From Nitrospinae bacterium RIFCSPLOWO2_12_FULL_45_22 (GTDB taxonomy: Bacteria > 2-12-FULL-45-22): a stretch of DNA of 9,100 nt. Of the stretch, positions 3,264 through 7,803 are shown piece after piece. The notes beneath the pieces were generated by a model, which saw nothing but the letters and a program-made list of their open reading frames with translations, ran no database searches and was not told the DNA's origin. The stretch is from assembly GCA_001803565.1 (NCBI GenBank), contig MHDQ01000047.1:1-9100 (forward strand), given 5' to 3'. Each line of letters begins with the position of its first letter. Positions within the stretch are counted from its first letter, which is position 1. The translations under genes and the position numbers were made by a program.

Positions 3264-4676
3264 TTAGATATCGTAGTAGAGGGCAAACTCGTAGGGGTGG
3301 GGCCGGAGGCGCAATTCATTAACCTCTTTGGTCCTCTTATATCTTATCCAGACATCAATAGCATCCTGGGTAAAGACATCCCCTTTCATCAGAAAGTCAT
3401 GGTCTTTCTCCAGGGCATACAGGGCATCTTCCAAAGACCCCGGTACCGACGGTACATGGGCCAACTCCTCAGGGCCTAACTCATAGATATCCTTATCCAG
3501 GGGCTCGCCTGGATCAATCTTATTTTCTATGCCATCCAGGCCCGCCATAAGCATAGCCGCAAAGGCCAGGTAACCGTTACATGCAGGATCAGGGAAGCGC
3601 ACCTCAATCCTTTTGGCCTTAGGACTAGGGGAATACATGGGGATGCGGACACCAGCACTGCGGTTGCGGCTGGAGTAGGCCAGGTTCACCGGGGCTTCAA
3701 AACCCGGGACCAGCCTCTTGTAAGAATTGGTGGTAGGGGCCACAAAGGCACATAGGGCCGGGGCATGCTTCAAGATACCACCTATATAATAAAGGGCCAG
3801 CTCACTCATACCAGCATACCTACTGCCAGCAAAGAGGGGTTTGCCGGCTTTCCAGAGGCTCTGATGGGTATGCATACCTGACCCATTATCGTTCCAGATG
3901 GGCTTGGGCATAAAGGTTGCAGTCTTGCAATATTTTTGGGCTACATTTTTGACAATATATTTATACCACATAAGGTTATCAGCACACTTGACCAGCGGGG
4001 CAAACCGCATATCAATCTCCCCCTGGCCGGCTGTAGCTACCTCATGGTGGTGGCATTCAATCTCAATCCCCAATTCTGTCATAGTCAGAATCATCTCTGA
4101 GCGAATATCTTGCAGGCTATCGGTAGGGGGTACAGGGAAATAACCTTCTTTATAGCGGGGCTTGTAGCCCAGGTTAGGATTCTCTTCCCGGCCCGAGTTC
4201 CAGCGACCCTCAATAGAATCTATATGGTAGAAGCTATGCTGTTCGCGGGAGTCAAAGCGGATATCATCGAAGATAAAGAATTCTGCCTCCGGGCCAAAAT
4301 AGGCCGTATCGGCAATACCGGTAGATTTCATATAGGCCTCGGCCTTCTGGGCAATATTGCGGGGGTCCCGGCTATACTTTTCTTTGGTAATAGGGTCCAG
4401 GATATTACAGATCATAGTCAGGGTAGGTACGGCGGTGAACGGGTCTAATACGGCCGTTGTTGGGTCGGGAACTACCAGCATATCACTGACATGGATGGCC
4501 TGCCAGCCCCGAATGCTGGAGCCATCAAACCCGAACCCTTCTTCAAAGGAATCCTCTGATAGTTCTAATATCGGTACAGTGAAATGCTGCCATAACCCCG
4601 GATAATCCATGAATTTCAAATCCAACAGTTTTACACCTTTACTCTCAGCAAACTTCAATACCTCCTTCGGTGTCAT
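3264..4676 (-). CDS. glnA: type I glutamine synthetase (GS-I beta), GlnA
   Basis: The 470-residue cytoplasmic dodecamer subunit joins glutamate and ammonia to glutamine using ATP. Visible hallmarks are the [11 protein letters not shown] loop (48-58), metal/glutamate ligands in [11 protein letters not shown] (E130, E132), E212 and E220 in [23 protein letters not shown] (H269), the flap residue E327 in VPGFEAP, the [10 protein letters not shown] arginines, and [10 protein letters not shown]. The roughly 25-residue insert around 143-170 marks the beta subtype. Tyr398 in [11 protein letters not shown] matches the adenylylation tyrosine of enteric GlnA, so control by GlnE and PII is expected. The ATG at 4676 is chosen because AGGAGGG lies 5 bases upstream and the length and Tyr398 position then match the family; a longer frame would translate the spacer repeat. 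It is the last gene of the ammonium cluster, 109 bases after glnB. Confidence 0.97.
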
Positions 4677-4681
4677 CTTGT

Positions 4682-4688: not shown

Positions 4689-4701
4689 ATAACAAACCGT
4701 T

Positions 4702-4763
4702 ATTAGGTTATTAGGTAACTGGGTAACTGGGTCATTGGGTACTGGGTAACTAAATAACCTAAT
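4702..4763. repeat. short tandem repeat enclosed by an inverted repeat in the glnB-glnA spacer
   Basis: Five consecutive units related to GGTAACTG fill 4714-4752 (units of 8, 8, 8, 7 and 8 bases; one reads GGTCATTG, one lacks a base). They are enclosed by ATTAGGTTATT (4702-4712) and its exact complement AATAACCTAAT (4753-4763). A further pair, ATTGGGT (4734-4740) and ACCCAAT (4765-4771), could extend alternative folding. In mRNA this would form a stem-loop between the two coding regions. It occupies most of the 109-base spacer. Its role is unknown: RNA processing, differential expression or a dispersed intergenic repeat. Confidence 0.8.
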
Positions 4764-4785
4764 CACCCAATCACCTATTTACCCT

Positions 4786-5136
<351 letters not shown>

Positions 5137-5153
5137 CTAAAAATAGATGTAGG

Positions 5154-5263
5154 CGTTCAGCCTTAAGCCTTCAGCTAAAAACAATCGTAATAAGAAAAAT
5201 TTCTCCTCATGCCTTGCCCCTCACGCCTTACGATAAGTCTTGCTGATGGATGACGGCTGAACG
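5154..5263. repeat. 110-base intergenic element with 22-base imperfect inverted ends
   Basis: The left arm 5154-5175 and the reverse complement of the right arm 5242-5263 agree at 18 of 22 positions, with a perfect outer 9 bases (CGTTCAGCC / GGCTGAACG). The arms and interior are themselves quasi-repetitive (TTCAGCC/CTTCAGC in the arms; CTCATGCCTTG and CTCACGCCTTA inside, 5208-5230). It would fold into a long hairpin in the leader of glnB. No coding potential is visible. It resembles a small dispersed repeat (MITE-like or degenerate intergenic repeat), but only one copy is in this window. Confidence 0.7.
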
Positions 5264-5303
5264 ATTACAAATAGGCCTTGCCTCTCGGTCATCTAGTGAG
5301 TGA

Positions 5304-5390: not shown

Positions 5391-6749
5391 TTATTTTGTG
5401 TGAAAACCCGAATAAGCCACTTCCCCGTGCGCGCTTATATCTACACCCTCGATTTCTTCTTCTGGAGATATCCTAAGTCCCATCATAACCTTAAGTACAG
5501 AGAGGATGATGAGGGTGCCTACAAAGGCAAAGATCCAGGTTGCCGCTACCGCGACGAACTGTACCCAAAGTTGCGCTGGATTGCCAAAGAAGAGGCCATT
5601 ATTCCCAGCCGCATTAATGGCTTTAGAGGCGAACAGTCCCGTCGCCAGAGCCCCCCAGGTCCCGCCAATCCCATGCACCCCCACTACATCGAGGGAGTCG
5701 TCATAACCCAACTTCATTTTAACATTGCAGGCAGTTGAGCAGAGGACACCCCCGCCTATTCCGATAAAGATGGAGGAGATTGGCCCAACAAAACCTGATG
5801 CCGGCGTAATAGCAACAAGCCCGGCAACGGCTCCGCTGGCAGCGCCTAGAACCGTGGGCTTGCCCTTCAAGACCCAGTCCATAACCATCCATGAGAGGGC
5901 TGCTGCTGCTGCTGCTGTGTTGGTAACGACAAAGGCATTAGTAGCCAGGCCATCAGCCGCTAATGCACTTCCGGCATTAAAACCAAACCATCCCACCCAG
6001 AGCAATGAAGCCCCAATAACGCTAAAGGGGAGATTATGCGGTGGCATTGCCTCGCGTCCGTAGCCGATCCGCTTCCCAAACATAAGAGCGGCGGCCAGGG
6101 CAGATACCCCAGAGCTGATATGCACTACTGTCCCCCCGGCAAAGTCTAAAGCCCCCAATTCCCTTAACCATCCTTTTACCCCCCACACCCAATGGGCCAG
6201 GGGGTCATAGATAAAGGTTGCCCAGAGTAAGACAAAGAGGACAAAGGTGCTGAATTTTGCCCGTTCTGCAAACGTACCGGTGATTAGCGCAGGGGTGATA
6301 ATGGCAAACATCAATTGGAAGACCATAAATGCCTGATGTGGGATAGTTGCAGCATAAGCTGGGTTGGGATCAGCTCCTACCCCGTTTAATCCAAACCAGC
6401 TCAGGCTACCAATGATTCCCCACTTGTCAGGGCCAAAGGAGAGGCTGTAACCCCACAGCACCCACTGAACGCTAATTAAGGCAGCAATAATGAAACTATG
6501 CATGATGGTGCCGAGGGCATTTTTTGTTCGGACCAGGCCACCATAAAAGAGGAACAGTCCAGGAATCGTCATCATCAGTACCAGGGCTGAGGATGTGAGC
6601 ATCCAGGCGGTGTCCCCTTTGTCAATCGTGTGGAGCGGTTGTGCCTCCGGGGTCTCAGCGCCCAGGGCCAAAGGGGTCAAAATGATTAGTAAAAGGATGG
6701 GTAAGATCGCCCATATAAATGACTTCTTCATTACTCCTTTGACTTTCAT
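5391..6749 (-). CDS. amt: ammonium transporter, Amt family
   Basis: The 452-residue inner-membrane channel conducts ammonium into the cell. After a cleavable-looking signal segment (about 7-31, ending PLALGAE, as in enteric AmtB) there are eleven hydrophobic helices. Family signatures are LFLFYGGLVRTKN (66-78), FMVFQLMFAIITPALITGTFAER (141-163, with the outer Phe gate), DFAGGTVVHISSG with pore His210, GWFGFNAGS (253-261) and DVVGVHGIGGTWGA with pore His359. The tail ISPEEEIEGVDISAHGE is the region that PII proteins engage. The start at 6749 is preferred: AAGGAG lies 8 bases upstream and translation begins just before the signal peptide. Longer in-frame starts (TTG at 6821) lack this, and the ATG at 6731 has its AGGAG too close. 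It follows the barrel gene by 79 bases and precedes glnB, so one nitrogen operon is likely. Confidence 0.96.
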   Translation of the reverse strand: MKVKGVMKKSFIWAILPILLLIILTPLALGAETPEAQPLHTIDKGDTAWMLTSSALVLMMTIPGLFLFYGGLVRTKNALGTIMHSFIIAALISVQWVLWGYSLSFGPDKWGIIGSLSWFGLNGVGADPNPAYAATIPHQAFMVFQLMFAIITPALITGTFAERAKFSTFVLFVLLWATFIYDPLAHWVWGVKGWLRELGALDFAGGTVVHISSGVSALAAALMFGKRIGYGREAMPPHNLPFSVIGASLLWVGWFGFNAGSALAADGLATNAFVVTNTAAAAAALSWMVMDWVLKGKPTVLGAASGAVAGLVAITPASGFVGPISSIFIGIGGGVLCSTACNVKMKLGYDDSLDVVGVHGIGGTWGALATGLFASKAINAAGNNGLFFGNPAQLWVQFVAVAATWIFAFVGTLIILSVLKVMMGLRISPEEEIEGVDISAHGEVAYSGFHTK

Positions 6750-6757
6750 AACTCTTT

Positions 6758-6828: not shown

Positions 6829-7635
6829 TTAGCTAATCTTTCCTACCCAGTTCTTAAGGAAACTCTTTGCCGTACTTATGTCTGTGTTTATATCCAATTG
6901 AAAGGTAAATTTGGTCTCACCATTAAGATTTTCATCTTTATACCATACCGGCCCTACCAGTAAGCTTATATTCTTGGTGAAGTAAAAATAAAGGCCCACA
7001 CCGCCGCCACCAAGGACATTGTCACCGCTCATATAATCAGCTGCAATCATAAGCTTATCCGGGATAAGCCATCTATCCCAACCGATCATAAAACCATCAT
7101 TTTCTTCACCTCCATTAGCGTCTTTCAAGACACTGCTATTAGCGAAATAATAGCCTGCATGGAGCCTTCCGACAAATGGAAGACTCTTGCCCACGATAAC
7201 ATCTACTGCATTCTGAGCTGTTAAACCCTTACTTGTCCCTACATTGAATATACCGAGGTTTAATGCCGGAGAGCCTTTAAACCAGGCATTTTCCGGGGTG
7301 CCGAGCTTGGCATTGAAAAACACGGGATAGTCAGTGGGTTCAACTAGGTCAATACCCACCTCCAGTTGTAACTTTTCAAAGGGTAAGACACCCACTGTCA
7401 GCCCTAAATCCGTTGGGAAGTCACCGCCCCTATTGCTCAGCTTCCTGGCCATGGTGGTATAGCTATCATAAGTTAAATGCCATATCCCAAAAGGCTGGAT
7501 ATCCATGGTGCATGGAGACCAATAAGTGGTTGAAGGCGTAGCCAGCACCCGCTCTGGCACCGCGAGCGCACCGATAAGTAATGATATAACTGCAAAAACT
7601 ACTCCCCTCTTTACTAAAAAATTTCTGCGCCTCAT
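6829..7635 (-). CDS. predicted secreted outer-membrane beta-barrel protein, unknown family, heading the amt operon
   Basis: A 268-residue protein with a clear Sec signal peptide: basic MRRRNFLVKRG, a hydrophobic stretch at 11-26, and a probable cut after VLA (32), giving a mature start TPSTTYWSP. The mature part has no membrane helices. It alternates polar and hydrophobic residues with aromatic girdle-like runs (for example GLYFYFTKNISLLVGPVWY at 214-232, LHAGYYFANS, LMIAADYMSGDN) and glycine-rich turns, which fits a small beta-barrel of perhaps 10-12 strands. The C-terminus does not end in the classical aromatic residue. I do not recognise a named family. Its place between a sigma-54 promoter and amt suggests a nitrogen-regulated outer-membrane channel or sensor, which is inference. 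The ATG at 7635 has AGGAGG 4 bases upstream. Confidence 0.8.
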   Translation of the reverse strand: MRRRNFLVKRGVVFAVISLLIGALAVPERVLATPSTTYWSPCTMDIQPFGIWHLTYDSYTTMARKLSNRGGDFPTDLGLTVGVLPFEKLQLEVGIDLVEPTDYPVFFNAKLGTPENAWFKGSPALNLGIFNVGTSKGLTAQNAVDVIVGKSLPFVGRLHAGYYFANSSVLKDANGGEENDGFMIGWDRWLIPDKLMIAADYMSGDNVLGGGGVGLYFYFTKNISLLVGPVWYKDENLNGETKFTFQLDINTDISTAKSFLKNWVGKIS

Positions 7636-7672
7636 AACTCCTCCTTTCTTTTATATATGGTTACCCGAAGAT

Positions 7673-7741
7673 AAAAAATGTAGAGTGCGGTTCCTGAACG
7701 TAGCGCAGTTCGCCTGGCATGATCAGGAGCTACGCACTACA
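7673..7741 (-). promoter_or_regulatory. leader hairpin with U tract and alternative pairing: possible attenuator
   Basis: On the minus strand a long stem (TGTA+GTGCG pairing with CGCAC+TACA, plus TCCTGA with TCAGGA) ends directly in TTTTTT (7678-7673), as in an intrinsic terminator, yet lies 38 bases upstream of the barrel gene start. A competing stem uses CGTAGC (7734-7729) and GCTACG (7704-7699) and cannot form together with the full terminator-like stem, because it takes bases 7733-7734 and crosses the TCCTGA pairing. A separate hairpin, GGTATT/AATACC (7748-7775), precedes it at the expected transcript start. A two-state leader is suggested by sequence only. Confidence 0.4.
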
Positions 7742-7787
7742 AATATTGGTATTACTTCCCATGGGATTGAATACCTATAGCCGAGGG

Positions 7788-7803
7788 AGCAAATAATATG
7801 CCA
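7788..7803 (-). promoter_or_regulatory. sigma-54 (RpoN) promoter for the barrel-amt-(glnB-glnA) cluster
   Basis: The minus-strand 16-mer TGGCATATTATTTGCT matches the -24/-12 consensus TGGCAC-N5-TTGCW with the exact 10-base gap between the GG and GC dinucleotides. Only the C and G after TGGCA differ. The predicted start is near 7777, giving a leader of about 140 bases to the ATG at 7635. Location upstream of amt, glnB and glnA fits NtrC-type nitrogen control through RpoN. Confidence 0.75.

Follow-up and report, generated by a model that had tools for sequence, protein, structure and literature searches.

Does a nitrogen operon that is read from a sigma-54 promoter carry a second control layer in its leader RNA? 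The question arises from the window, by which we mean the whole 9,100-nucleotide stretch of DNA analysed here, located on contig C47 of a 3.67 Mb assembly (321 contigs, 85% complete). On its minus strand lie, in this order, a gene for a barrel protein (6829-7635), which is the first of the operon, the ammonium transporter gene amtB (5391-6752, start inferred; PF00909, E 1e-129), the PII gene glnB (4786-5124; PF00543) and the glutamine synthetase gene glnA (3264-4679, start inferred; PF00120). The barrel protein belongs to no Pfam family, and its structure model shows 12 strands at a confidence too low for a fold search (pLDDT 47). In many distant genomes its gene stands beside those for AmtB, PII or both, and the protein is likely an outer-membrane partner of ammonium uptake.

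Along the minus strand, the end of a multihaem cytochrome gene (8006) is followed by the sigma-54 site, a leader of about 140 nt, the ribosome-binding site and the operon. The -24/-12 promoter TGGCATATTATTTGC (7789-7803) differs from TGGCACN5TTGC by a single mismatch and RpoN is encoded in the genome, which bears out the sigma-54 promoter that an earlier note on this DNA had placed before the barrel gene. Transcription is expected to start near 7777 on the minus strand. Sigma-54 sites also recur ahead of barrel genes in other genomes.

Between the sigma-54 site and the ribosome-binding site, the leader can form a 63-nt stem of -22 to -22.8 kcal/mol (hairpin 2, 7679-7741, minus strand), and a tract of six U residues (7673-7678), the expected 3' end of a short leader RNA, follows directly on its 3' side. 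Both elements were found where the earlier note had drawn them, and a stable stem with an adjacent U-tract is what defines an intrinsic (Rho-independent) terminator. The fold is non-random: its minimum free energy of -22.8 kcal/mol corresponds to a z of -2.9 and was equalled by two of 200 shuffles. With the closing pairs enforced, the hairpin obtained a terminator score of 4.0, which is only just positive on the scale after d'Aubenton Carafa, in which the U-tract is combined with the stem energy relative to length. None of 1000 free shuffles of the leader reached this score; when the U-tract was kept in place, six of 1000 did so, and none attained the energy. The tract ends 43 nt upstream of the barrel start codon, leaving little room for another promoter between hairpin 2 and the ribosome-binding site. 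A sole role as terminator of the upstream cytochrome gene is unlikely, as the stop codon of that gene lies about 265 nt upstream with the sigma-54 site in between.

Intrinsic terminators typically, though not necessarily, combine a short, compact stem and a small loop. The hairpin is non-canonical, being long and closed by A-U pairs, with an interior loop and a 2-nt bulge close to its base, and it is therefore absent from the list of a simple terminator scan (loops of 3-8 nt). Given these features and the barely positive score, termination may be weak. The imperfect stem with its bulge near the U-tract would also suit a structured 5' leader in which no termination takes place, serving for message protection or persisting as a neutral leftover, for example of an old insertion in which AAAT flanks GTAG...CTAC. 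Four-bp AAAT repeats are indeed present at 7676-7679 and 7741-7744, but so short and AT-rich a repeat is likely to occur by chance, the six U residues stand directly at the stem base, and the score is not that of random sequence. We consider such a leader quite improbable.

The inverted-repeat shape of the element and its terminal TGTAG/CTACA might further point to a dispersed palindromic repeat of the REP or MITE type, an alternative that the earlier note had raised itself. It finds no support: searches of the window genome by BLAST and with a covariance model returned a single copy, while in the same BLAST search the amtB-glnB spacer (5140-5290), serving as positive control, gave 25 matches. 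A repeat origin is thus extremely improbable, and the want of a second copy of any element speaks against the leftover of an insertion as well. The control spacer is itself a dispersed repeat family with 28-nt inverted arms (25 genome matches at E <=0.01). The glnB-glnA spacer (4690-4780) is also repetitive, containing GGTAACTGGGTAACTGGGT... plus an inverted copy. At 2888-2967 on the minus strand there is a sub-threshold match to a group II intron family (35.4 bits vs a cut-off of 40), probably an intron remnant.

Among 98 other genomes no homologous leader and nothing beyond chance matches was found, and the leaders of the close barrel relatives L029, L030 and L006 differ and are not homologous to that of the window. 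This bears on another explanation, in which a constitutive terminator would yield a nitrogen-induced small RNA, some 100 nt long, from the sigma-54 promoter; the operon would be fed by leakage past the terminator, and no switch would be regulated. Promoter, hairpin and U6 would suffice to define a transcript of approximately 105 nt, and no further element is needed. A leader that is not conserved elsewhere and belongs to no Rfam family fits a small RNA poorly, and we regard this explanation as rather unlikely.

The upstream part of the leader offers less. Hairpin 1 (7748-7775), composed of GGUAUU/AAUACC and a small inner UCC/GGA stem, forms as the earlier note had proposed, at -6.5 kcal/mol, but 19% of shuffles equal it (p about 0.19) and it is not significant. 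Taken in its entirety, the leader shows no unusual degree of structure (z -1.1). The competing fold that had been suggested, CGUAGC/GCUACG, likewise exists as an alternative pairing, but another register is better. The best early fold in the absence of the 3' arm pairs segment 1, GUAGUGCG (7740-7733), with segment 2, UGCGCUAC (7707-7700), at -16.9 kcal/mol, against -11.2 kcal/mol for the suggested register. Segment 1 is at the same time the 5' arm of the terminator and segment 2 lies in its loop; the 3' arm is segment 3, CGCACUCUAC (7680-7689). When the transcript was folded at increasing length, the early hairpin was present in transcripts of about 82-88 nt, and the terminator took over from about 94 nt. 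An early fold as good as this one arose in 5% of the loop shuffles (p about 0.04-0.05), so the competing fold is real in the model and only marginal as a sign of design.

Other modes of leader control were considered. The ribosome-binding site AAAGGAGGAG (7638-7647) is left unpaired in the leader fold and is thus not sequestered, which favours control of transcription rather than of translation. Two short reading frames, encoding MGSNTNICSA (7762-7730) and MPGELRYVQEPHSTFFIFG (7720-7661), were rejected as leader peptides, as neither has a clear ribosome-binding site by eye and MGSNTNICSA is devoid of glutamine codons. Riboswitches were also rejected, since the window leader has no Rfam match at E up to 5, and no Rfam riboswitches were present in the related leaders.

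In order to compare the window with leaders of orthologous genes, a profile of the barrel protein was searched against 386 genomes, with matches in 24 further genomes, and the 220 nt upstream of the start codon were scanned in 25 leaders from 24 genomes, the window included. Terminators of positive score were found in six of the 25 leaders on the sense strand, in none on the antisense strand, in none of 25 stretches of coding DNA from the same genes, and in two of 1000 shuffles (0.2%); 19 of the 25 leaders are without one. In five of the six, including the window (43 nt), the terminator ends 29-43 nt upstream of the start codon, and in the sixth, L046, it ends at 81 nt. This recurrence of position counts against a leader structure that does not terminate. 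The leader of genome G171 (L052) even shares the order of the window, with a sigma-54 site TGGCATTAGAGTTGC at -156, a first hairpin, the terminator and the barrel gene. Position, shuffles and five orthologous leaders in other families together strengthen the proposal that the leader terminator is a second control layer. In L041 (G087), two terminators stand in tandem before barrel-amtB, at -203 and -32.

Lineages appear to differ in the use they make of the leader slot, as in the Nitrospirae loci L029 (860-1129) and L030 (272-574) a small frame for a Fis-type HTH protein (PF02954) separates the sigma-54 site from the barrel gene. This frame could encode the operon's own regulator. The phylum of the window genome is represented by two genomes only in our set. 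In the nearest genome compared, G001, which belongs to the same order and is 68% complete, the barrel gene was not detected. Its amtB is 74% identical and has a consensus sigma-54 site TGGCACACAAATTGC upstream. A hairpin with an AnnGnn hexaloop, AAAGGC[AAAGGU]GC, stands there before U8, about 40 nt ahead of the ATG (L080 2639-2727); at -4.2 kcal/mol this hairpin is weak and suggestive only.

Such hexaloops raise the question of an ANTAR antiterminator of the NasR/EutV type, a protein that blocks the terminator by way of two hexaloop hairpins. An ANTAR target has a pair of hairpins, each with an AnnGnn hexaloop, of which the second overlaps the arm of the terminator; leaders of PII and ammonium-transporter genes are listed among such targets (PMC3369931). 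Four of the five other terminator leaders (L041, L046, L052, L053) contain an AnnGnn hexaloop hairpin that overlaps the terminator arm, each with a chance of 0.4 to 7%, and L052 additionally has a first hairpin with the loop AGCGCC. Of the genomes with these five leaders, G171, G087, G227 and G367 encode ANTAR proteins and G125 does not. Overall they occur in four of the six genomes with a leader terminator vs two of the 18 without (Fisher p 0.018, with G087 and G227 sharing a genus). In G171, whose barrel-PII-amtB operon has a textbook ANTAR leader, genes for an ANTAR response regulator and for a class-I glutamine amidotransferase are found just upstream of that operon (L075 3495-4910), with the regulator gene two genes ahead of that for the barrel protein.

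The window departs from this scheme. Its leader forms no AnnGnn hexaloop hairpin with at least 3 pairs, neither a P1 nor a P2 at the terminator arm, and no ANTAR protein was found above the cut-off in the window genome (G000), where 85% completeness leaves some doubt, or in G001. The earlier note was thus right to doubt ANTAR control here, which is unlikely. That the gene resides in the missing part of the assembly and the motif has drifted strikes us as a very improbable combination. The best reading is that the terminator is ANTAR-like in layout, lacks the hexaloop hairpins of ANTAR leaders and is not a member of this class.

We posit, with a probability of roughly 55%, that an intrinsic terminator is present in the leader and functions as an attenuator, with termination in the cell predicted from sequence. 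We favour this reading because the hairpin with U6 exceeds chance, is single-copy and is placed between the sigma-54 site and the ribosome-binding site, because orthologous leaders have terminators in the equivalent position and G171 shares the order, and because the terminator supplants the early hairpin when transcripts of growing length are folded. Against it stand the non-canonical hairpin, the majority of barrel leaders without a terminator and the marginal competing fold. Under nitrogen limitation, as the promoter type and the genes suggest, RNA polymerase would start near 7777. In the emerging leader, segment 1 would at first find its partner in segment 2, which later forms part of the loop, until the 3' arm is made and the stronger terminator stem displaces the early hairpin. 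U6 would then release a fraction of the polymerases near 7673-7678, yielding a leader transcript some 100 nt long, and the remaining ones would read through into barrel-amtB-glnB-glnA. We infer that the terminator is regulated and has a regulator, and a factor or condition that slows refolding may set the read-through.

More speculatively, and in our view with little likelihood, a non-ANTAR attenuator might have replaced ANTAR control of the operon in this lineage, in the form of a three-segment RNA with the antiterminator partner inside the terminator loop, whose co-transcriptional refolding sets read-through, possibly with an RNA-binding factor. The attenuator reading supports the view that sigma-54-driven operons for ammonium uptake in distant bacteria repeatedly carry a layer of post-initiation control. 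It also marks one lineage in which the terminator is kept and the ANTAR machinery is seemingly absent as a place to seek a different antitermination factor.

Among known systems, the glutamine riboswitches (glnA RNA, Downstream-peptide RNA) resemble the window in their nitrogen genes and leader position and differ from it in being Rfam families, of which the window leader matches none. The ANTAR leader terminators (NasR/nasF, EutV/eutP; PMC3369931) share with it a nitrogen operon leader, an upstream hairpin and a U-tract terminator before the first gene. The orthologous barrel operons fit the ANTAR scheme, whereas the window has neither paired AnnGnn hexaloops nor a detected ANTAR protein, and its competing partner is inside the terminator loop, not upstream. 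With the classical attenuators (trp/his type, BglG/SacY RAT) it has in common a strand that belongs to both the terminator and an alternative hairpin. It differs from the trp/his type in having no convincing leader peptide, and from the classical attenuators as a whole in the place of the alternative partner, which here is downstream, in the loop of the terminator.
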